Of a DNA stretch of 64,000 nucleotides, positions 11,357-23,083 are shown in pieces. The stretch is taken from positions 1-64,000 of the forward strand of contig NZ_FAOO01000012.1 in NCBI RefSeq assembly GCF_900070205.1. The letters are read 5' to 3'. The DNA is from Candidatus Thermokryptus mobilis. GTDB lineage: Bacteria > Bacteroidota > Ignavibacteria > Kryptoniales > Kryptoniaceae. The position numbers and the translations under genes are program-made. The notes below the pieces were generated by a model that worked only from the letters and a program-made list of their open reading frames with translations, had not been told where the DNA came from and ran no database searches. Positions within the stretch are counted from its first letter, which is position 1. Each line of letters starts with the position of its first letter.

Positions 11357-12403
11357 TTAGTTATCAAATAAGCCAGGTTGCTTTTCAGAGCGCGTTTTTA
11401 TAAAACCGAAATGCCTGTATGCAAGCTCCGTTGCAACCCTACCACGAGGAGTTCTCTTGATAAACCCTTCCTGAATTAAATATGGCTCATAAACCTCCTC
11501 AATTGTGCCCTCCTCTTCACCAACAGCAACAGCTATAGTTCCTATACCAACTGGACCACCGTTGTATTTTTCTATTATCGTTAAAAGAATTCTCTTATCC
11601 ATATCATCAAGTCCGTGCTCATCAACATCAAGTGCTTTAAGAGCATATTCAGCGACCTCCTTAGTTATCACGCCACCATATTCGGCAAGATTTTTATCAG
11701 CTTGAGCGAAATCCCTTGATCTTTTCAATAACCTGTTCGCTATCCTCGGTGTCCCCCTTGACCTTCGCGCTATTTCATAAGCGCCTTCTTCAGTTATCTG
11801 GATTTGCAAAATCTTTGCCGAACGCTTTATGATTTGACAAAGTTCATCGGGTGTATAATAATCAAGCCGAGCACTTATGCCAAACCTCGCCCTCAATGGA
11901 GCAGTTAAAAGCCCAGCCCTGGTAGTTGCACCCACAAGCGTAAACCTAGGCAAATTTAACTTAACACTTCTCGCATTAGGACCAGTATCTATCACTATAT
12001 CAATTTTAAAATCCTCCATCGCAGAATAAAGATATTCCTCAACTACCGGACTAAGGCGATGAATCTCGTCAATAAAAAGAACTTCCCTATCACTTAAACT
12101 TGTCAAAATCCCAGCAAGGTCACCAGGTTTCTCAATGACAGGACCTGAGGTCACTTTTATTCCAACCCCAAGTTCATTTGCAATTATATAAGCAAGTGTT
12201 GTCTTACCAAGCCCCGGAGGACCAGTCAAAAGCACATGGTCAAGGGGTTCCTCCCTCATTTTAGCAGCCTGTATGAAAACCTTCAAATTATTGACAATTT
12301 TTTCCTGCCCGACAAAGTCGTCAAATTTTAAAGGTCTTAATTGCTGATCAACCTCAACATCAATCTCAAGCTTTTCAGGGTTTGTATAACCTGCTCTTGG
12401 CAT
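11357..12403 (-). CDS. ruvB: Holliday junction branch migration ATPase RuvB
   Basis: 348 residues. The N-terminal RuvB signature ([11 protein letters not shown]) is followed by Walker [10 protein letters not shown] (61-69), Walker B with IDEIHRL (111-117), sensor 1 GATTRAG and the arginine finger region PLRARFG. The C-terminal winged helix ends with [15 protein letters not shown]. It drives branch migration with RuvA, which is not in this window. It is the first gene of the minus-strand run to 7066 and has a good sigma-70 promoter. Confidence 0.97.
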
Positions 12404-12430
12404 AAAGATAAGCTTGCCTTGTTTTTGCTT

Positions 12431-12459
12431 AATTTAAAAACAATCGGAGAGAATATCAA
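12431..12459 (-). promoter_or_regulatory. Sigma-70 promoter of the ruvB operon
   Basis: On the minus strand TTGATA (12459-12454), 17 bases, TAAATT (12436-12431), with the ruvB ATG about 28 bases further on. Confidence 0.55.
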
Positions 12460-12475
12460 CTTTATCCCCCGCTAA

Positions 12476-12506
12476 AAAATAAAAGGGGCGGTTTTTAAAC
12501 CGCCCC
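12476..12506 (-). terminator. Rho-independent terminator
   Basis: A perfect 10-bp stem, GGGGCGGTTT (12485-12494) with AAACCGCCCC (12497-12506), followed on the minus strand by a T-rich run. It lies just after the stop of the T9SS-domain fragment at 12514. Confidence 0.85.
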
Positions 12507-12513
12507 GTATAAA

Positions 12514-13578
12514 CTACTTCACAAACATAAGCTTCTTACTTTCAACAAATTTACCAGCCCTCAATGTGTAAATGTATGTCCCACTTGCAAGGTCCTTGGC
12601 ATCAAAAATAACTTTATATCTCCCCGCTTCAAGTTCTTCATCAACAAGTGTCGCAACTTCCTGCCCAAGGATAGTATAAATTTTTAAACTAACTTTCTGC
12701 CTCTCCGGAATTGAAAATTCAATCGTCGTGCTCGGGTTAAATGGATTCGGATAATTCTGCTTCAGCTCATAACCAACAGGAATTTCATCGCCAATCTTTT
12801 CAACCTTCAAAGGAATAACAGGAAGCGTCCCCTGATAAACCCATTTATCAACAGTCCAACCATAATATGATTGCGTGTAAAGATTTTTCTTCTCATCAAA
12901 CTTCACATCATAAGGCGAAGTGTAGCCAGATGCATTTCCTGGCGTTGTCCCATCCGTTCTGGTGCTATAACCCCCGGTCATAATGTAATTCCATTTAGCA
13001 ATATCAATAGTGTCAATCGGCTCGCCCGTCGTCCCGCTTACAACATAAATCCTTCCATAAGGATATCCCATTGATAAAGGCGAGGGTCTCCAAACAGCAC
13101 AAGCTATAAATAAAAGATTATTCTCGTCTAAATACTCTAAACCGATCGGCGTTCCTTTCCACATAGAAGAACCACCTGTATCAGCTTCACCGAGTTGGAA
13201 ATTAAACTTTGAGTCAACTTGATAACCGGTTTGAGGTGAGCCGACATATTTAACAACTTTCCTTTCTGTTGTGTCACTATAGGACACAAACAACCACGAA
13301 CCATCGCTATTTACTTCTATACCTTTGTAAACCCCATCCGGAAGGTCAATTTTTAAAATTGGCGTCGCGGTATGCGTTATCCAAGCATTTGGATCACTTT
13401 TGATTGACGGAAAGATTTTAATGTCATCATCTCGGCCATAACTACTATCGTTAATTACATAAACTCTCCCTTGAGAATCAAGATCAAGCGCAAAGATTAT
13501 ATTATCTCCCGTTTCAAGCCGATAGGGGGTTGGCAAAATTGTGTCGCCTGTGAATTTGAAAACAAGAATGTTGTGCAT
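12514..13578 (-). pseudogene. T9SS-sorted beta-propeller-like secreted protein, 5' end missing
   Basis: 354 residues from the first ATG. The C-terminal 80 residues are a complete type A T9SS sorting domain: NYPNPFNPSTTIEF, LKIYTILGQEVATLV, then a strand ending in KKLMFVK. The front part reads like a propeller (LDLDSQGRVYVIND, IEVNSDGSWLFVSY, YDVKFDEKKNLYTQ). There is no signal peptide, which a T9SS cargo must have. The frame remains open upstream only to a TGA at 13648-13650, and the extra residues are not a signal sequence either. The gene therefore looks cut at its 5' end, next to tRNA-Leu. A wrong join in the assembly is an alternative. Confidence 0.6.
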
Positions 13579-13723
13579 ATCATCATTTAAAGGAAAAAAA
13601 GAATTGTTATAATTGTGCGCATGACACCACCAAGTTTTATTTTTTATTCAAGCACAATTTAAATAAGCCCAATTTTAATGTCAAGAGAAAAGGTATGAAA
13701 AACCCATCCCCTATGAAAATTTG

Positions 13724-13805
<82 letters not shown>

Positions 13806-13818
13806 AAAAGTCATTTTA

Positions 13819-13847
13819 AATATAGCAAATCAAGATTTTAAAATCAA
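13819..13847 (-). promoter_or_regulatory. Sigma-70 promoter of tRNA-Leu
   Basis: Minus strand: TTGATT (13847-13842), 17 bases, TATATT (13824-13819), 13 bases before the tRNA 5' end. Position and spacing fit a tRNA promoter well. Confidence 0.65.
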
Positions 13848-13853
13848 GAATTA

Positions 13854-13883
13854 AAAAAGAAGGGAAGGGATTTCCCCTTCCCC
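13854..13883 (-). terminator. Rho-independent terminator of the TonB receptor remnant
   Basis: GGGAAGGG (13862-13869) pairs with CCCTTCCC (13875-13882); on the minus strand a T-rich run follows. It lies 9 bases after the stop codon at 13892. Confidence 0.8.
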
Positions 13884-13891
13884 TCAAAAAA

Positions 13892-14434
13892 TTATCTATA
13901 AAACACCCTTAAACCGAACTGCAAATATCTTGGCGCATATGAACTATTTGGCTGTCCAAAATTAGCTAAAGGATTTCCACTGGCATCATACATACGATTA
14001 AAGTAACCCGCTGCGTTAAACCAATTGAAAACATTAAAGGCATCAAAAATTAAAGCAATTCTATAATAGCCAAATTCAAATACCTTACTCAACCTTATAT
14101 CAACTATCTTATACCAATACCTGACTTTCCTCCAATCAAGCGTCCAAATACGCGTATCGCCTGGCCAATCATCTCCATAGAAATTATTATCATTCAAATC
14201 TCTGCCATCAATTACATTAAATGGTCTGGGCGAAGCCAAAGTTGCTATTCCACTGAATTGGAAACCAAATGGCAAATTAACAATCCAATTTAAAACAAAA
14301 CGATGTCTTTCATCTGCACTGCTCCTTTGCATCCTATAGCTTGATGCAAAAGGATATGCCGGTGGGGTCACGCCATCAAAATCTGAATAAGCCCAAGATA
14401 AAGTGTATGACAATTGCAAAGTATAACTTTGCGT
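13892..14434 (-). pseudogene. TonB-dependent receptor, C-terminal barrel remnant
   Basis: Only about the last 180 residues of a TonB-dependent outer membrane receptor are present. The sequence has barrel strands (LQLSYTLSWAYSDFDG, HRFVLNWIVNLPFGFQFSG, YRIALIFDAFNVFNW) and ends in an aromatic-rich strand, LQFGLRVFYR. Full receptors have about 900 residues with a plug and signal peptide, none of which is here. In frame, a TGA at 14435-14437 closes the frame upstream; the first possible start codon is a TTG at 14419. The fragment keeps its terminator. I read it as a decayed gene cut at the 5' end. Confidence 0.75.
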
Positions 14435-14454
14435 TCACCCCCACCACCCAAAAC

Positions 14455-14483
14455 TTGACTTTTTACACATCCTTTATTATATT
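14455..14483 (+). promoter_or_regulatory. Sigma-70 promoter of the apbE operon
   Basis: TTGACT (14455-14460), exactly 17 bases, TATATT (14478-14483). Transcription would start near 14490, about 25 bases before the apbE ATG, inside the palindrome described separately. Confidence 0.7.
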
Positions 14484-14486
14484 TTA

Positions 14487-14503
14487 TTTAGATTAAATCT
14501 AAA
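14487..14503. promoter_or_regulatory. Palindromic operator, DtxR/SirR-like
   Basis: TTTAGATT (14487-14494), one A, AATCTAAA (14496-14503): a perfect 8-bp dyad just downstream of the -10 box, so a bound protein would block initiation. The TTTAG...CTAAA outline resembles boxes of the DtxR/SirR/MntR family of iron or manganese repressors; that assignment is by resemblance only. Confidence 0.55.
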
Positions 14504-14514
14504 TTAATAAAACG

Positions 14515-15420
14515 ATGCTAAAACTTTTCGCAATTTTGCAACTTATATCGCTGATATTACCACCGCCACAAGGAAAAAGCTATTATCTAATGGGAACATA
14601 CTCATACATTGAGATGCCAAGCGCGGACCTTAACAAAAAAGCATACAAAATCCTGCACGACATTGAAACAAAACTTTCAGATTATATTGACTCGTCCGAG
14701 GTCTCAAGGATAAACGCAAATGCAGGAAAAAACTTCCTAAAGGTTTCAAGTATAACAATGGAAATGATAAAAAAAGCAATTGAAGTGTCAGAGAAAAGCT
14801 TTGGGTATTTTGACATAACAATCGGTGCCCTGACGATAAACGCTAAAAGGTTGAAAAAAATTGACGAATTTAGAGCAAAAGAACTTGTTAACTTCAAAGA
14901 TATATTAATAAAAGGAGATAGTGTGATGCTTAAAAGAGAGAACATGGCGATTGACCCTGGAGGCATAGGCAAAGGATTCGCAATTGAAATGTGTTACAAG
15001 AAACTTAACTCAAAGAAAGGTTTCATCTCAATTGGCGGTGATATGAAAATATGGGGACATAAAAGAACGATAGCTGTGAGAGACCCAAGAAATGGCACAT
15101 CATTGGTTCAAATGGTTAATTCAAAAGATGTTAGCATCTCCACATCGGGAAATTATTTGAGAAAGCACATTGAGACGCCAGAAGATGATGTGCTTCAAGT
15201 GACCGTTGCACATGAAGATGGAGGATTTGCTGATGCTTATTCAACCGCAATCTTTGCGATGCCAGAAAAAATGAGAAGAAAATTTATTGAAGATAACCCG
15301 GATGTTGGAGTCTTAATCGTCTACAAAGATGGCTCAATCTTTATTAACAAAAGGTTTATGGAATTTTTTGAAATCTTGCTCTTCAAAACAAATTCGGAAA
15401 AACAAAGGAGGAAAAATTAA
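14515..15420 (+). CDS. apbE: FAD:protein FMN transferase ApbE
   Basis: 301 residues with an N-terminal hydrophobic export signal (1-16). Family motifs are present: MGT at 26-28, AIDPGGIGKGFAI (145-157) for FAD binding, SISTSGNY (207-214), and ADAYSTA (239-245), which supplies the Mg2+ ligands. ApbE attaches FMN covalently to Thr of S/TGAT motifs in exported flavoproteins. The FMN-binding protein two genes downstream carries just such a motif, so it is the likely substrate. No Shine-Dalgarno sequence is evident at this start. It is slightly short for the family (usually 320-350). The porin gene begins 2 bases after the stop. Confidence 0.92.
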   Translation: MLKLFAILQLISLILPPPQGKSYYLMGTYSYIEMPSADLNKKAYKILHDIETKLSDYIDSSEVSRINANAGKNFLKVSSITMEMIKKAIEVSEKSFGYFDITIGALTINAKRLKKIDEFRAKELVNFKDILIKGDSVMLKRENMAIDPGGIGKGFAIEMCYKKLNSKKGFISIGGDMKIWGHKRTIAVRDPRNGTSLVQMVNSKDVSISTSGNYLRKHIETPEDDVLQVTVAHEDGGFADAYSTAIFAMPEKMRRKFIEDNPDVGVLIVYKDGSIFINKRFMEFFEILLFKTNSEKQRRKN

Positions 15421-15422
15421 CC

Positions 15423-16763
15423 ATGATTAAGAAATTAATGTTGATCGCATTAACACCACTTCTATTACTCTCACAAACGCAAGAGGAAAAGATAAAGCAA
15501 CTTGAGGAAAAAATTAAAAAACTTGAAATGCAGATATCACAATTTCAAATTCAATCCGAAGAAACACAAAGATTGCGCCAAGAAATTGAAGCAATTAAAG
15601 AAGAAATCAGACAATTGCGCCTTGAGGTGGCAATGCCAGAGATAGAATTGAAATCATACTTCGGACTTGGTCCAGCAGCTTCAAAAATTTATTACACTCC
15701 CAGAGGTCTTTCAATAGCTGGTTACGGTGAAATTACATATGAGAATTTCCTTGATAATTCAAAAACTGACAGAGGGGATGTCCTGCGCTTTATCCCCTAT
15801 ATCGGTTATAAGTTCTCGGATAAAATCCTTGTTAATTCAGAACTTGAAATTGAACACGCTGGAATTGGTAATGTCGCAAGTAGGAAACCAGAAGTTTATG
15901 TTGAATTTTTGTATGTTGATTTCATTTTGAGTTCAAAATTTAACCTCAGAACAGGTTTATTTCTCGTCCCTTCAAGTAGAATGAACGAATATCACGAACC
16001 GCCGGTTTTCTTCGGGACATTGAGACCTGATGTTGAAAGATTCATAATTCCAACCGTTTGGAGAGAAATTGGAATTATGGCTTATGGAGATATACTTAAC
16101 GGGCTGTCTTACAAGCTTGGAATTATGAACGGATTGAGAACTGATTTGATCACAACTTGGATCTCTGATGGAAGACAAAGAGGTGCTACTGTTAACTTTG
16201 ATAAATTTGCGGGTGTGTTGAGATTTGATTTATCAGGTATAAAGAATCTTAACATAGGCACTTCTTTCTATTATGGTGGAGGAAGCGATAAAGCTGGAGC
16301 TGAACAAAAAGGAAATGAAAGCGCACTGTTTAGATTGTGGCTACTTGAGGCTCAATATCAGATTGGAAATGCATCGGTCAAAGGTCTTTATGCACTTGGT
16401 AGCGCTTCTGGAAATTCATCTTACACCTCAAAAACACGCTCCAAACTCGTTTACGGTTTTTATGTTGAAGCGGGTTATAATATCATTCCATTGCTTTACC
16501 CTGAATCAATCGTCTCCCTTTCCCCATTTATCAGATATGAAAGATACGATTTAAATCGTGATGTCTTCACAGGTAATGCCGATCCATCTAAAAACAGAAG
16601 TGTTCTAACGCTTGGAATTGACTTCAAACCCCATCCTCAAGTTGTTTTGAAAATGGACTATCAAATTCGCAACACGATGTCAAATTTACAAGTCGGGAAA
16701 GGAACAGGATTAGATGAGTGGAAAATTGATCAGTTCAACTTGGGGCTCGGCTTCATATTTTAA
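15423..16763 (+). CDS. Outer membrane porin with N-terminal coiled coil (OprO/OprP-like)
   Basis: 446 residues: signal peptide (1-18), a Glu/Lys-rich coiled coil (about 20-72), then about 370 residues of alternating, aromatic-girdled strands ending in GLGFIF, a terminal Phe typical of outer membrane barrels. The coiled coil plus barrel plan matches the phosphate-selective porin O/P group and other Gram-negative trimeric porins. GGAGG lies before the ATG. It is flanked by apbE and an FMN-binding protein gene, so it probably serves the same process, perhaps as the route by which a substrate enters or electrons or a small acceptor pass the outer membrane. The substrate is not known. Confidence 0.75.
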   Translation: MIKKLMLIALTPLLLLSQTQEEKIKQLEEKIKKLEMQISQFQIQSEETQRLRQEIEAIKEEIRQLRLEVAMPEIELKSYFGLGPAASKIYYTPRGLSIAGYGEITYENFLDNSKTDRGDVLRFIPYIGYKFSDKILVNSELEIEHAGIGNVASRKPEVYVEFLYVDFILSSKFNLRTGLFLVPSSRMNEYHEPPVFFGTLRPDVERFIIPTVWREIGIMAYGDILNGLSYKLGIMNGLRTDLITTWISDGRQRGATVNFDKFAGVLRFDLSGIKNLNIGTSFYYGGGSDKAGAEQKGNESALFRLWLLEAQYQIGNASVKGLYALGSASGNSSYTSKTRSKLVYGFYVEAGYNIIPLLYPESIVSLSPFIRYERYDLNRDVFTGNADPSKNRSVLTLGIDFKPHPQVVLKMDYQIRNTMSNLQVGKGTGLDEWKIDQFNLGLGFIF

Positions 16764-16786
16764 TGTAAGCCATTTTGAGGTTAAAC

Positions 16787-16813
16787 CCGCCTGGGATTCC
16801 CCAGGCGGTTTTT
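16787..16813 (+). terminator. Terminator after the porin gene
   Basis: CCGCCTGGG (16787-16795) pairs with CCCAGGCGG (16800-16808), followed by TTTTT. It lies between the porin and the FMN-binding gene, so the downstream genes may be read through at a lower level. Confidence 0.85.
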
Positions 16814-16833
16814 AAAACAAAAAATTAAACACT

Positions 16834-17340
16834 ATGTCAACCCTTTTATTAACTTTTCTACTTTTTCAAATCGGGAAACCAGAAAAGATTTTAAATGAAA
16901 TTTACCCCAACTCCAAAATTGAGATAAAAAATATCGTCCTTTCTGAAACGCAAAAAAATAAGGTTAAAGAACTCTCCGGGGTTGAAATTGAAGGCAAGCT
17001 CGTAACATTTTACCTTGTCAAATTTAACGATCAAGTCAAATTTTACGGTTTCGTAGATGTGCATATCGTTAGGACTCTACCAGAGGTTGTGCTTTATGTT
17101 TTAAATGATAGAGGTGAAATTGAATTAATTCAAATTCTCTCTTTTAAAGAACCGCCCGAATACAAAGCAGATGATAACTGGTTGAAATATCTGAAAGGCA
17201 AAACACTTGGTAAAAATCTTTTGCGTTTGCGCCGAGATGTCCCAAACATGACCGGTGCAACACTTACAGCAAAAGCGATAACCGACAATGCAAGAAAAGT
17301 CATCGCACTTTGGAAAGTGATTTTTGGTGAAGTGAGATGA
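16834..17340 (+). CDS. Exported FMN-binding domain protein (flavinylation substrate)
   Basis: 168 residues with a short N-terminal hydrophobic segment (1-12). The C-terminal half is an FMN-binding domain like those of RnfG, NqrC and NosR; MTGATLTAKAI (139-149) is the flavinylation motif with Thr143 the predicted FMN acceptor. The N-terminal part (20-100) has strands typical of the domain. It should carry covalent FMN outside the cytoplasm. It overlaps the next gene by 4 bases (ATGA), so the 8-TM protein is very likely its membrane partner. No rnf or nqr genes are nearby, so it is not part of those complexes. Confidence 0.85.
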   Translation: MSTLLLTFLLFQIGKPEKILNEIYPNSKIEIKNIVLSETQKNKVKELSGVEIEGKLVTFYLVKFNDQVKFYGFVDVHIVRTLPEVVLYVLNDRGEIELIQILSFKEPPEYKADDNWLKYLKGKTLGKNLLRLRRDVPNMTGATLTAKAITDNARKVIALWKVIFGEVR

Positions 17341-18281
17341 GATTCTTTTGGACTGGAAACTTAAAAAATCCAAAGCCAATTGGTTTTGCTTTGGCTTTTT
17401 TCATCCTTTTCCTTATTCTATTCTGGATTGGAAATTTTGTTAACTTTTGGTTCAAGTTTGAATTTTCAGTTGAAAAGATCGGCAATTATCTTTTCGGTGA
17501 GCCAGATTTCCCATTGAAAATTTCACCAGCGCAAGTTCTGGAAGAAGCGCACATAAACTTATTCGTCATCGGAATTTTATTTTTATGTCTTTCAGCTTTG
17601 TTAATTTACTCACAACTAAAAGATAGAGCAAAAATATATCTTATCGCTTCCACCAGCGTCTCTGGAATTATTTACATTTTTATTGATCTTTTAATTTTAT
17701 CCCTTGGGCGGGAATTTTCATGGCTGAAAATTTTCGCGTTTTCGCTTTTCCAATTAGTAATATTAATTGCCTTAATAATCATTATAACCTTTCCAAAACT
17801 TGACAACAGAAATGGGAAAAAATTTATCGCCTATATCGTCTTCATCTTCGCAATCTTAAATTTAATCTTCGTTGTGATAAACCTTTTCGTCTATTCAGAG
17901 AAGATCGGTCTTTCAATTTCACAAACAGGTGATTATTATTTGGGTAATCCTCAAAAACTCATAAAGCAAAAATCAATTCAAGGCGCAATTTCAATCTCAC
18001 AGCTTCATTTCCTGCCGATGGCGATTTACATTTTAACATTAGCCCATTTCATTTATCTTGTTAACGAAAAATTTAACCTCAGCCTCACACTTCTTCTTTT
18101 TTCAATGTCTTTAATTGACAACATATCGGGAATTTTAATTTTATACTTCGGTAAGGTCTTTGCGGTTGTCAAATTTATTTCCTTTCTCTCCTTGGAATTC
18201 CTTCTCTTTGTGTCATCATTATTAATCATTTTAAAGATGATAAGTTCAAAGTTCAACTTCCCCAATCGCGGGCGTATCTGA
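17337..18281 (+). CDS. 8-TM membrane protein with internal duplication, partner of the FMN-binding protein
   Basis: 314 residues with eight membrane segments at about 14-38, 71-92, 100-123, 130-151, 161-186, 218-241, 247-271 and 278-300. The two halves resemble each other: the loop [12 protein letters not shown] (46-57) matches [19 protein letters not shown] (188-206), each followed by a His at the start of the next helix (His72, His224; also His237). TM3-4 and TM7-8 also align by eye. I do not recognise a named family. Coupled translation with the flavinylated protein suggests it moves electrons between quinone, haem or another donor and FMN; the histidines could be ligands. It overlaps the convergent nadE by 29 bases. 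Confidence 0.7.
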
Positions 18282-19092
18282 AATCAATATTTATTGTTCT
18301 ATATGAAATTTTCGCAATGATCGGCGGACGCCTTTTGAACTGATTTCGCTGAACCATAAGTTTCACCTTTTCAATTAACACCCTTTCAAATCCAAGTTCA
18401 ATTAATTCTTCATCCGCTTTTCTTTCATCAACCATGAAGTAAAGCAGTTTATCAACCTCTTTATAAGAAATACCAAGCTCGTCCTCATCCGTTTGTCCAA
18501 CCCAAAGGTCGGCGGTTGGTTTTTTCTCTATTATTTTTCTTGGAACCCCAAGCTCTTCAGCAAGTTGCCAAACCTGCGTTTTATACAAATCACCGAGAGG
18601 ATTTATAGCACTTGCCATATCGCCATAGAGAGTACCGTAACCAAGAAGAAGTTCAGTTTTGTTGCTTGTCCCAATCACGAGAGCTTTCTCACGAGCTGAA
18701 AGGTCATATAAAATTATCATTCTCATCCTCGCCATGACATTCCCGCGTCTGATGTTGTTCATATCTGGAAACCTTTCAAAATATGGCTCACACATTGGAG
18801 TTATATCAATTAATTCGCTCCTTATCCCAAGATTTGAAATGACAAGTTGTGCATCTTCAATGCTATCTCGCGAACTCGTCTTGTAAGGCATCATCACACC
18901 AAGGACATTTTCCTTACCGAGGGCTTCGGTTGCAAGATAAGCTGAAACAGCCGAATCAACCCCACCAGAAACACCTATCACTGCTCTGTTAAGACCAAAC
19001 CGTGTTGTTTCCTTTCTTATGAAATCAACGAGAATCTTGCGCACAAACTTTGTGTTAAGCTTTAAGTCTTTAGACCTTTCAAGTATTTCCAT
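18253..19092 (-). CDS. nadE: NH3-dependent NAD+ synthetase
   Basis: 279 residues from the ATG at 19092; a TTG at 19104 would add four residues and neither has a clear ribosome binding site. [10 protein letters not shown] is the ATP-pyrophosphatase P-loop, and [14 protein letters not shown] is the conserved loop that binds the nicotinate adenine dinucleotide. There is no glutaminase domain, so free ammonia is the nitrogen source. The enzyme makes NAD+ from deamido-NAD+. It follows the WbpB-WbpD-like fusion gene by about 15 bases. Confidence 0.94.
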
Positions 19093-19107
19093 AGTTTGAA
19101 CCAATGA

Positions 19108-20721
19108 TTAATTTTCAATTTTCGTTACCTTATTTCCTCTTTTTTGATAACTTCTTCCGCACCTTTTGCAGACCGCTTTACTTTTTTTGAAGTTTATTTT
19201 TTCTCCACATTCACAAACCCAACCTGTCAACTTTGCTGGGATGCCGGTGACGATTGCATAGTCTGGGACATCCCTTGTAACAACAGCACCTGCTCCAACC
19301 ATTGCCCAACGCCCTATCGTTATACCGCAAAGTATCGTCGCATTTGCCCCAATTGTAGCACCTTCACGAACAAGCGTCGGAATCCATTTGCCACCTTTGG
19401 GATATTTCGCCCTTGGGTTGATGTCGTTTGTAAACACAGCCGAGGGACCTACAAAAACATAATCCTCAAGCGTCACAAGATCGTAAACAGAGACATTATT
19501 TTGAATTTTTACCCCATTCCCTATCACAGCCCTTGACCCAATGAAACAGTTTTGTCCTATGACACAATTTCTCCCAATCTTTGCCCCACTCATAATATGC
19601 GTGAAATGCCAAATCTTTGTCCCTTCACCAATTTCACAAGGTTGATCAATCACAGCTGTTTCATGAGCAAAGTAATTTGATCCCATTTTCAATTTAACAC
19701 CGTTATTTCTTAATGATTCACTCGCAAGTTCAAGAACTTTCAATACATTTATTGACTCTAACCCATCCGTCAACGGTTTTTTTCTTAAATTAACACATTC
19801 AACGAAATGAAGACAAGCATTCCTCAGAGGTTCATCTTTAGGTATATCAATGACTTCTACATCGGCTTTTTTAGCAACTGGGAGAGAATTAATCCATTCA
19901 ACTTTGTGTGGATAAAGCACAAGTTTATTTTCCCTTTCTGTATCATCAAAGACAGCCATCTTCTTCGTCCCTATGACAACGAGTTTTTGCTCCTTGTATG
20001 GATGAATCCAACTGACAAAGATATGAGCCCTGATTCCATTTTTAAATTCAAGATGCGTAACAGTTACATCACACGGTATCTTTGAAATATCATTTAAACC
20101 GCTTGAATTTGCTTGAGTATCTTCTGTAAAGAAATAACTTCCGCCAAAAGAGGAAACTTTTTCCGGCACTTCACCCGCAATTGAAAGTATCAGGGAGACA
20201 TCGTGCGGGGCGAAACTCCAAAGCGTGTTTTCCTCACGCCTAAACTTTCCAAAATTTAACCTGTTTGAATAAATATATTTTATTTCGCCAAGTTCTCCAT
20301 TTTTTATTAGGTCTTTAAGCTTCTGCACAGCGGGATGATACTGAAGGACATGGTCAACCATTAAAATTAAATTTTTCCCCTCGGCTATTTTCACAAGTTC
20401 AACCGCTTCATCAACTTTCAGCACCAATGGCTTCTCCACAAAAACATCCTTGCCCGATAATAAAAATTTCTTTGCAAGTTCATAGTGCGTTTCAGACGGC
20501 GTTGCAACTGCAACAGCTTTTATCTCGTCATCTTTAAGAATTTCCTCAATTGAATTCGTATAAATTGCACTATACCTCTCTTTAAGTTCATCAAAATTTG
20601 TCTCATTTATATCGCAAACTACTTTTAAAACGCCAATCTCATAAAAATTTCTGACAAGATTTTTCCCCCAGCTTCCCGAACCAACAACAGCGATGAACTT
20701 TTTCATACCATTTTCAATCAT
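19108..20721 (-). CDS. Fused UDP-sugar acid 3-dehydrogenase (WbpB/WlbA-like) and LbH N-acetyltransferase (WbpD/WlbB-like)
   Basis: 537 residues in three parts. Residues 8-340 form a Gfo/Idh/MocA oxidoreductase, with Rossmann motif VVGSGSWGKN and the VEKPL loop (95-99) of the active site. Residues 350-495 form a left-handed beta helix of hexapeptide repeats (IGEGTKIWHF, IGRNCVIGQ, VFVGPSAVF, IGANATILCG), as in WbpD/WlbB. The last 35 residues carry a zinc-ribbon-like Cys503, Cys505, Cys518, Cys521 set. In Pseudomonas and Bordetella separate enzymes oxidise C3 of UDP-GlcNAcA and later acetylate the 3-amino sugar. The intervening aminotransferase (WbpE) is not in the window. The ATG overlaps the sppA stop. 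Confidence 0.85.
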   Translation of the reverse strand: MIENGMKKFIAVVGSGSWGKNLVRNFYEIGVLKVVCDINETNFDELKERYSAIYTNSIEEILKDDEIKAVAVATPSETHYELAKKFLLSGKDVFVEKPLVLKVDEAVELVKIAEGKNLILMVDHVLQYHPAVQKLKDLIKNGELGEIKYIYSNRLNFGKFRREENTLWSFAPHDVSLILSIAGEVPEKVSSFGGSYFFTEDTQANSSGLNDISKIPCDVTVTHLEFKNGIRAHIFVSWIHPYKEQKLVVIGTKKMAVFDDTERENKLVLYPHKVEWINSLPVAKKADVEVIDIPKDEPLRNACLHFVECVNLRKKPLTDGLESINVLKVLELASESLRNNGVKLKMGSNYFAHETAVIDQPCEIGEGTKIWHFTHIMSGAKIGRNCVIGQNCFIGSRAVIGNGVKIQNNVSVYDLVTLEDYVFVGPSAVFTNDINPRAKYPKGGKWIPTLVREGATIGANATILCGITIGRWAMVGAGAVVTRDVPDYAIVTGIPAKLTGWVCECGEKINFKKSKAVCKRCGRSYQKRGNKVTKIEN

Positions 20722-23083
20722 TTTTTATAAACAAGGAATTCATCACTCGTTCAACTATTCCAAGCTCAAAACCTAAGAGTGAAGGAACGGTATAAAACTT
20801 TACCTCATACTTTTTCAGTTTCAACTTTTCTCCAGCATATGCAATCGCTTGACTTAAACCACCGAATTCATCTACGAGCTTTAACTTGAGCGCTTGAGCT
20901 CCAGTGTAAACTTTCCCTTGAGCCAAATCTTCAACTTCATCAAGCGTCATATTTCTATTCTCCGCAACCTTTTGCTTAAATGAAATGTATGTATATTCAA
21001 GCATCTCTTCAACCTTTTTCTTCTCAATATCTGTCAGATGTCTTATGGGAGAAAACATATCTGAATGTTCCCCTTCTTTATATTGTTCAATCTTGATTTT
21101 GAGATTATCGTAAAGTTTTGAAATGACCGGTTTGGCAAAGACGACACCGATACTTCCAGTTAGTGTAGCTGGGCTTGCAAAAATTTTCTCCGAACCGCAC
21201 GAGACATAATATCCACCGCTTGCTGCAATGTTACCAAAGGAAACCACAACCGGCTTCTTCTTCCTTGCTTCTTTAAGCGCAGTATAAATTTCATTTGAAG
21301 CAAGCGCAGAACCACCCGGACTGTTAACTCTTAAAATTATCGCCTTAACGCTCTTATCCTTTACAGCCTGATGGATTTGCTTGACGATTGTTTCAGAACC
21401 AGTTATTCGCTCACTCAGAAAAGGAAACGGAATCGGCGGTTGACTTTCACCTGTTAGAATTGAACCATGGACACCTATAACAGCTATCTTCGGAACCTCA
21501 CCCCAGGATGTTTCCCAATCCCTTCTCGCTCCGACTTTTACAAGATTCACTTTTTCATCATCGCGTTTATTAGCAAGTTTATTCACCATTTTTTTCGCCT
21601 CATTGTAAAAACCTATCTCATCAACTATACCGAGCTCCTTTGCCCGCGATGGTGTCACAATGCTTGAAATTTCGCTGATCAAATCATCAGTGAATTCAAT
21701 TCCCCTTGCCTTTGAAATCTGTTCCATCATCTGCCTATGAATATCCTCAGCAAGGGATTTGATAAGTTGCGCTTGCTCAGTCGTAGCTGAATCGGTGTAA
21801 TAAGAGTGAAATGTTGACTTAAATTTTCCAGCAGTCATCGCATCCCACTCTATGCCGAACTTCTCAAAGAAACTTTTAAGCCGTTCAACATTTATAATCG
21901 CCCCATACCCGACTATCATACACTCAGGAGCGATGACGATTTTATCTACAACGCTTGCGAGGTAAAGTTCATTTACGCTTGCACTTTCACCACCGAGATA
22001 AGCAACAACTGGTTTCCCTGCTCTCTTGACTTTTTTAACCGCATCAACTATTTCCTGTGTAATCGCTTCAAGCTCATAGATTTTTATCTCCCCAGAAAAG
22101 GGATAAATTTTTAAAATCAACCCATTTATGTCTTTATCCTTTGCTGATCGTTCAATTTCAGAAACTATATCATGAACACTTCGCCTTGGCTTTGAAAAAA
22201 TTGACGGCTGTTCTTTGTAATCGGGAATCACACCTTTTATTTCCACCTCAGCGATTCTCTTAACAGGATAAAATGAAGTTGGAAGAAACTCACTTGAATA
22301 AAAAGTTGAAATGGTAAATTTGGAGTTTATTTTGTTGCCGTTTGAGAAAAATTTAACTCCAGCGTTTTGAAAATTAATCGTAACCCCGAAAAGCAAAACT
22401 TTTTCCCTTTTGAAAATTTTTGAGTTATCAAACAATGCACTGATCTTCAAGCCATCAATAATTTTAAATTCAGCACCATACTTGTAATTTGAGTTTTTTA
22501 ATTTACCTTTGTCATTTATATAAACATCCGCAGACAAGGTCAATCTATCATCACCTATCGGTCTAAGTCCTGCCCCAAATATGTATTTTCTTTCAAAAGG
22601 CGTTGCTCTGAAATATCTTCCTGTCAAGTTTTGAAGAACAAACGAAAATGCAACGAACTCAAATGGTCTTGAAAGAAATCCGATGTTAAATGATGTTTTA
22701 AAGGGTTCATCATTTACTTTAATGTAATCAATCCCAAATCCACCAGTGAAATTCCTTTTGCCAAAGCCGAGTGAAAAAGATAGAAGCGTCATTGAAGAAT
22801 CGCCAAATTTTTCCGACTTTAAGCCCAACCCCGCTCTGTTATTTTGAAAAAGAAATCCCAAGTCAAAATTTTTTGATAACGGCTTGTTAAAAGTTGAAAC
22901 ATAAAAATTGAAGTTTGTATGATGTTTAATACCTGTGATCGCTGGATTAAACCTTATGCCATCGGCGCCCTCAGTTGTTGCGCTAAACAAATATCTTTCA
23001 ATTATTGGAGGGTGAAGGGTCTGCGAGTGTAGGTTTAAAAACGCAAGAACTGAAATCAAAAAGGGGAAAATTTTAATTTTCAT
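20714..23083 (-). CDS. sppA: Signal peptide peptidase SppA (S49, 67K type) with N-terminal barrel-like domain
   Basis: 789 residues from the ATG at 23083. A signal peptide is followed by about 270 residues of alternating polar and aromatic strands that read like an outer membrane or PorV-type barrel, then two S49 domains (about 290-500 and 540-745). The catalytic Lys of the first domain is in TAGKFKS; the nucleophile Ser is in AASGGYYVS of the second, after NSPGGSA. SppA cuts leftover signal peptides and membrane proteins. E. coli SppA (618 residues) has only the two S49 domains, so the front part is an extra. Translation is coupled to the fusion gene downstream. Confidence 0.87.

Follow-up and report, generated by a model that had tools for sequence, protein, structure and literature searches.

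What is the purpose of an operon that joins an FMN-attaching enzyme to an exported flavin-binding protein and a membrane protein of unfamiliar type, and to what acceptor would its electrons go? This question is raised by a locus of Candidatus Thermokryptus mobilis lying in a stretch of 64,000 nucleotides from contig NZ_FAOO01000012.1, which is referred to here as the window. The sequence-only reading of this DNA had described four genes on one strand as a single operon and had left the acceptor unnamed. The open reading frames bore out the layout: the ApbE, porin, FMN_bind and 8-TM genes are all on the plus strand, between positions 14,515 and 18,281, and form one operon as judged from the ORF list of this Kryptonia genome.

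The first gene (14,515–15,420, plus strand) encodes an ApbE-type FAD:protein FMN transferase of 301 amino acids, which matched Pfam PF02424 with an E-value of 2.3e-43 and, in the PDB, solved FMN transferases with a best E-value of 2.8e-18. It is followed by a gene for a porin-like outer membrane barrel of 446 amino acids with an N-terminal coiled-coil-like stretch (15,423–16,763, plus strand). As for the porin and coiled coil described earlier, the barrel was weakly matched by OMP_b-brl (PF13505; E-value 6.4e-6, 26.9 bits, below the Pfam cut-off of 28.7), and the coil is suggested by coil-type Pfam matches, all of which are likewise below cut-off. The relative of this porin in locus L061 matched Porin_O_P above cut-off, and that in L018 did not. 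The third gene (16,834–17,340, plus strand) encodes an exported FMN_bind protein of 168 amino acids (PF04205; E-value 3.2e-6, 28.1 bits, cut-off 22), and its stop codon overlaps the start of the fourth gene in the sequence ATGA at 17,337–17,340. The fourth gene (17,337–18,281, plus strand) encodes an 8-TM protein of 314 amino acids, a tandem fusion of two 4-TM copies according to profile comparison, a tree and hydropathy. The identities given earlier to ApbE and to the FMN_bind protein were confirmed by Pfam matches above cut-off for both. Single-sequence PDB searches with the FMN_bind protein or the porin gave no meaningful match.

The TGAT flavinylation motif that had been noticed in the FMN_bind protein is present at 17,251–17,262 (plus strand), and FMN is predicted to be carried on its last threonine, residue 143. 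Across the 66 FMN_bind proteins found in the comparison of loci described below, GA[ST] was kept in every one and GAT in 65; [ST]GA[ST] was found in 56, and in the other ten GAT is preceded by Val, Ala or Ile. The structure model of the FMN_bind protein was partial, with a mean pLDDT of 66 and values below 50 for residues 104–143, which include the flavinylation motif. When this partial model was used in a structure search, RnfG and NqrC chains were the leading matches, with E-values from 0.003 upwards, and no structural match was obtained at an E-value of 0.001 or better. The FMN_bind domain and the motif are also what the operon has in common with NqrC and RnfG.

In six of the seven Kryptonia genomes, ApbE and FMN_bind were each matched just once, and both matches lie in the operon, so no FMN_bind subunit of the Nqr, Rnf, NosR or PceC type was found elsewhere in these six genomes; in this respect the sequence-only reading, which had seen no sign of the Nqr, Rnf or NosR systems, was supported. 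In addition, no Nqr or Rnf subunit was recognised in the ORF list of positions 12,000–21,000, and a second FMN_bind match was absent genome-wide. The operon differs from Nqr and Rnf in this single FMN_bind match per Kryptonia genome that carries it, and in a membrane partner that resembles none of their subunits by Pfam or NCBIfam match. With ApbE, a substrate protein and the motif present together, the operon can be classed from its sequence as a putative ApbE-type flavinylated extracytosolic electron-transfer cluster.

Gene clusters for flavinylation and their link to iron are already known (PMC8238504, PMC11334425). The MsrQ-like, PepSY-like and NapH-like clusters likewise combine ApbE with a flavinylated extracytosolic protein and a membrane electron-transfer protein (Meheust et al., 2021, PMC8238504); the same article ties several such clusters to iron uptake, and cites the PepSY-like type as Fur-repressed in two species. 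The Kryptonia operon differs from all three in that its membrane protein has no Pfam match above cut-off. The published clusters are described without a porin or FeoB, and neither word occurs in the main text of PMC8238504 or in that of PMC11334425. MsrQ-like systems have Ferric_reduct (PF01794), whereas this family was matched in none of the seven Kryptonia genomes, two of which are incomplete; it was matched in four of 14 control genomes. DUF4405 and FezC are membrane proteins with conserved histidines in the membrane, DUF4405 being linked to ApbE and FezC to iron (Huang et al., 2024, PMC11334425), and FezC was modelled there as a homodimer, as we propose for the 4-TM unit. They have six TM segments and four central histidines, whereas the 4-TM family has 4 or 2 × 4 TM segments with an HxH motif, and heme binding was shown for DUF4405 and FezC (PMC11334425), whereas for the 4-TM and 8-TM proteins a heme is something that we infer.

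The membrane partner itself was searched against several collections. A hydropathy scan found the eight TM segments that had been counted earlier, and the suspected duplication was recovered by profile comparison of the N-half with the C-half (E-value 1.6e-10); each half also matched single 4-TM proteins of two relatives, with E-values of 2.9e-12 and 6.4e-15. The 8-TM protein has a counterpart of 93% identity in a Candidatus Thermokryptus record and one of 53% in a Candidatus Kryptonia record. No Pfam or NCBIfam family was matched above cut-off by the 8-TM and 4-TM proteins, the 4-TM family had no match in these databases to the NapH-, MsrQ-, PepSY-, DsbD- or Nqr/Rnf-like, DUF4405 or FezC membrane proteins, and DUF4405 was not among the Pfam matches listed at E-values up to 1 for either form. 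Judged by Pfam and NCBIfam, the protein does not qualify as the membrane partner of a described flavinylation class. A 4-TM profile gave nothing meaningful against PDB sequences, and no relative turned up when plasmids were searched with one 4-TM protein. The 4-TM family is apparently a membrane component newly described here, and it would add a candidate to the short list of membrane components that feed protein-bound flavins.

Two copies of the unit were found in six Kryptonia proteins only, among 74 domains from 68 proteins. In a tree of these domains, for which the program warned of long branches for the halves, the Kryptonia N-halves were grouped with support of 100/98 and the C-halves with 100/99, the two groups were sisters (96/88), and the fused halves adjoined nine single-unit proteins of family f3.

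HxH was kept in all 62 single-unit 4-TM proteins, near the outer end of TM2 as predicted from hydropathy and a weak charge bias. In the fused Kryptonia proteins this pair is divided. His72 (17,550–17,552, plus strand), the counterpart of the first histidine, belongs to the N-half, and His224 (18,006–18,008, plus strand), the counterpart of the second, to the C-half, both being kept in six of six proteins; the second position of the N-half is Asn or Ser and the first position of the C-half is Tyr or Gln, again in all six. The same pairing of the halves was obtained in separate profile alignments. A third histidine, His237 (18,045–18,047, plus strand), stands 13 residues further on and is kept in every one of the six Kryptonia C-halves; its counterpart was seen in nine of the 62 single units, namely those of the f3 clade, the nearest single-unit relatives.

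Since the fused halves each keep a different histidine, the site appears to be shared between two units. The simplest reading of these alignments is that a working site pairs the first His of one unit with the second His of another, that the single units would be dimers, and that the Kryptonia fusion would retain one of the dimer's two composite sites. In this way the fused protein provides a direct prediction of which histidines make one site. A structure model of the 8-TM protein built from three sequences (those of the window, L002 and L003) had a mean pLDDT of 47, which was too poor for a heme site to be seen. Somewhat short of even odds, in our estimation, is the broader proposal that the 4-TM proteins with HxH could be a new small class of membrane electron-transfer proteins, widespread in the phylum Bacteroidota, whose homodimers with composite sites would, as part of a Fur-controlled ferric reductase, reduce a periplasmic protein that carries the flavin, the Kryptonia fusion having frozen the dimer with one site left.

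It could also be argued that the 4-TM and 8-TM proteins have no redox role at all and are a mere anchor or part of a transporter, with the electrons of FMN coming from elsewhere. This would agree with the lack of a family or PDB sequence match and with a cofactor that is only putative, but it fits poorly with the invariant HxH, which is predicted to lie near the outer end of TM2 and is divided between the fused halves, or with the Kryptonia genomes, in which no other FMN_bind-containing protein and no Ferric_reduct protein was found. We consider it unlikely and propose that the 8-TM protein is a membrane electron-transfer module.

The sequence-only reading was to fall if, among other things, relatives of the four genes did not occur together in other genomes, but they were indeed clustered across the phylum. 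The 8-TM protein was found in six of the seven genomes of the genus; in the remaining one, G396 (78% complete), neither the 8-TM protein nor FMN_bind nor ApbE had a match. A ten-row profile detected the 4-TM family in 40 of 294 genomes of the class, and a 30-row profile, run on 395 genomes sampled across the phylum, detected it in 41 of them, or 33 of 171 genera. Every match of both profile searches, apart from those of G062 and G561, was taken into the comparison, which comprised 68 loci from 67 genomes; G561, G343 and G423, whose frames contain stops, and G062, a 34-residue fragment at a contig end, were dropped ahead of any counting. Using profiles built for this comparison, we found that in 66 of the 68 loci the 4-TM gene has FMN_bind as a neighbour on its own strand and that the porin is present in 63, ApbE in 34, FeoB in eight and Fur in six, although the loci include many close relatives and these counts are therefore not independent. 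Both loci without FMN_bind (L059 and L080) end at a contig edge. The 4-TM gene precedes FMN_bind in L020 and L162, and the porin is on the opposite strand in L060 and L066. As for the 34 loci without ApbE, 28 genomes were tested and ApbE was found elsewhere in all 28.

In L061 and L072 the genes stand in the row Fur-FeoA-FeoB-porin-FMN_bind-4TM, with ApbE next in L061, and the row FeoA-FeoB-porin-FMN_bind-4TM-ApbE is found in five f3 loci, in one of which it is interrupted by an extra gene; some of the gene families in these FeoB-carrying rows were confirmed by Pfam. Among the matches listed in a literature search, judged by title and start of abstract, the gene trio was not described, and the supplementary cluster tables of PMC8238504 may include some of the loci. 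The earlier interpretation was partly upheld. Its core, an operon for electron transfer through a flavin whose membrane partner is of an unfamiliar type, is supported by the clustering and by the single ApbE and FMN_bind of each Kryptonia genome with the operon; flavinylation, the direction of electron flow and the role of the porin are predictions.

Two further features of the f3 operons were also noticed. An extra exported-looking protein of 283 residues without a Pfam match is encoded between the porin and FMN_bind in L019 (6147–6998). Downstream of ApbE, L018 (6090–6743) and L057 (9133–9774) encode a CbiX-type protein (with a Pfam match in L018), which has a signal-like N-terminus and would thus place a chelatase-like protein outside the cytoplasm, next to an iron system.

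Upstream of the operon, a promoter-like sequence was read directly on the plus strand (14,455–14,483), consisting of TTGACT (14,455–14,460), 17 bases and TATATT (14,478–14,483); by eye, a similar one precedes the other five Kryptonia operons. Between it and the first start codon, at 14,486–14,504, lies a perfect dyad of the Fur operator type, ATTTAGATTAAATCTAAAT. The operator was found as a perfect site before six of six Kryptonia operons, one species having the core TTTAGACTGAGTCTAAA, in which both sides are changed and the dyad is kept. In the genome of the window (97.5% complete) this operon has the sole perfect operator, and the sole site with one mismatch lies 18 bases before fur-feoA-feoB, the products of which matched FUR (E-value 1.3e-32), FeoA (9.6e-14) and FeoB_N (2.6e-54) in Pfam and feoB above cut-off in NCBIfam. 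A one-mismatch site is located 12 to 18 bases before fur in all six Kryptonia genomes with an orthologue (at least 75% identity); no fur orthologue was found in G400 (71% complete). Three further one-mismatch sites were seen in three Kryptonia genomes. Two of these lie between lipB and a thioredoxin-like gene. They come from two Kryptonia species (L110 of G397 and L112 of G395), where the site has a gene that is lipB-like by reading on one side and a thioredoxin-domain gene on the other, and they may mark a third target of the operator's regulator.

With up to two mismatches allowed, the seven genomes contained 60 sites as against 87 for the reversed control, the operator being commoner in two of them, so that it is the position alone that counts. 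Similarly, with up to three mismatches the window holds two sites where 1.88 were expected. Outside the genus, operon starts were scored with a weight matrix trained on 12 Kryptonia sites alone. Of 55 starts, 32 reached at least 16 bits and 43 at least 12 bits (the other 12 scoring lower), as against 11 and 53, respectively, of 2135 control windows. This comparison favours the operator, since the controls, for which every remaining 300-base window of these loci was used, are mostly coding DNA. Seven of the 62 loci outside the genus were omitted from the 55 starts, L053, L054, L056, L059 and L080 because of contig ends and L020 and L162 because the 4-TM gene comes first; no operator was seen in L020 and L162. 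The FeoB operons of the f3 clade in L018, L019, L055 and L057 had no recognisable operator at their first gene, that is, at the FeoA start.

The operator and the Fur box of Riemerella anatipestifer, ATTTAGAATTATTCTAAAT, have identical seven-base arms (PMC5609570). This species belongs to the Bacteroidota, and its purified Fur bound promoters with predicted boxes in vitro; its feoA and feoB are outside the box list of that article and were lower in the fur mutant (PMC5609570). A DtxR-type box was considered and rejected, given the site ahead of fur-feoAB and the Fur box known from this Bacteroidota species. We also set aside an iron-responsive ApbE gene of Riemerella as possible support; it has locus tags neighbouring those of a TonB receptor and a gene named as nitric oxide synthase (PMC5609570). 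From the operator at its promoter, the operon can be assigned to a putative Fur regulon and is probably iron-controlled, and the Fur-type operators together with the FeoB linkage point to iron as the acceptor.

A second, distant FUR-family gene (21–26% identity) was found in six of the seven Kryptonia genomes; Fur is for this reason a candidate regulator at the operator, where either of the two FUR-family proteins may bind. When the regulator was compared with NCBIfam, ferric uptake regulator models scored best and PerR models also matched, all below cut-off. Fur boxes resemble PerR boxes. The PerR matches, the second gene, the likeness of the boxes and the 60 of 68 loci without FeoB would suit a periplasmic redox defence under PerR-like FUR-family control, with electrons passing to peroxide, oxidised methionine or another stress product. 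However, the best scores of the regulator are those of ferric uptake regulator models, and the operator also serves fur-feoAB; a defence of this kind seems to us quite improbable.

We estimate at roughly 60% the probability that the operon is a Fur-controlled assimilatory flavin-based ferric reductase supplying FeoB. Under iron shortage Fur would leave the operator and the operon would be made, and ApbE would attach FMN to the exported FMN_bind protein at Thr143. Electrons would be drawn from the membrane by the 8-TM protein, most likely from menaquinol, a heme perhaps being held between its two units by His72 and His224, and would be passed at the outer face to FMN. Once reduced, FMN would in turn reduce Fe(III) or a ferric chelate admitted by the porin, and FeoAB, which is under the same operator, would import the Fe(II). 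Feo (FeoA and FeoB) shares either the operator or the locus with the operon and would thus take up its product. We know of no reductase in Feo itself, and to our knowledge the step from ferric to ferrous iron ahead of FeoB is largely open in Bacteroidota; the gene trio, the regulator and the operator would form a testable set for this reduction. Counting against iron are the 60 of 68 loci without FeoB and the 62 of 68 without Fur at the locus.

The same parts could instead serve respiration. The operon would then be a dissimilatory flavin conduit to external Fe(III) or some other acceptor for energy, merely tuned by the Fur operator. Flavinylated proteins do act in respiratory chains and in extracellular electron transfer (PMC8238504), and Kryptonia have been reported from high-temperature springs (PMC4737851). 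Nevertheless, the operator held in common with fur-feoAB and the adjacency of FeoB in other families fit uptake better, and no terminal oxidoreductase gene was recognised in the operon from the ORF list or Pfam. Moreover, porins are not known to pass electrons through the outer membrane. We regard respiratory use as rather unlikely and uptake by ferric reduction ahead of FeoB as the better account of the locus.

Several features flank the operon in the window. The 3' end of the 8-TM gene overlaps that of a convergent gene, NAD synthetase-like by reading, by 29 bases (18,253–18,281), which may explain why the end FPNRGRI is kept in five of the six aligned 8-TM proteins. On the other side, a short ORF at 13,892–14,419 has a partial match to an outer membrane barrel (PF25183, profile positions 623–725 of 838) and has the look of a gene remnant or a truncated gene. 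Additionally, the protein encoded at 12,514–13,578 carries a secretion-system C-terminal sorting domain (PF18962), and its gene lies beside that of a tRNA-Leu (gag) at 13,723–13,805.
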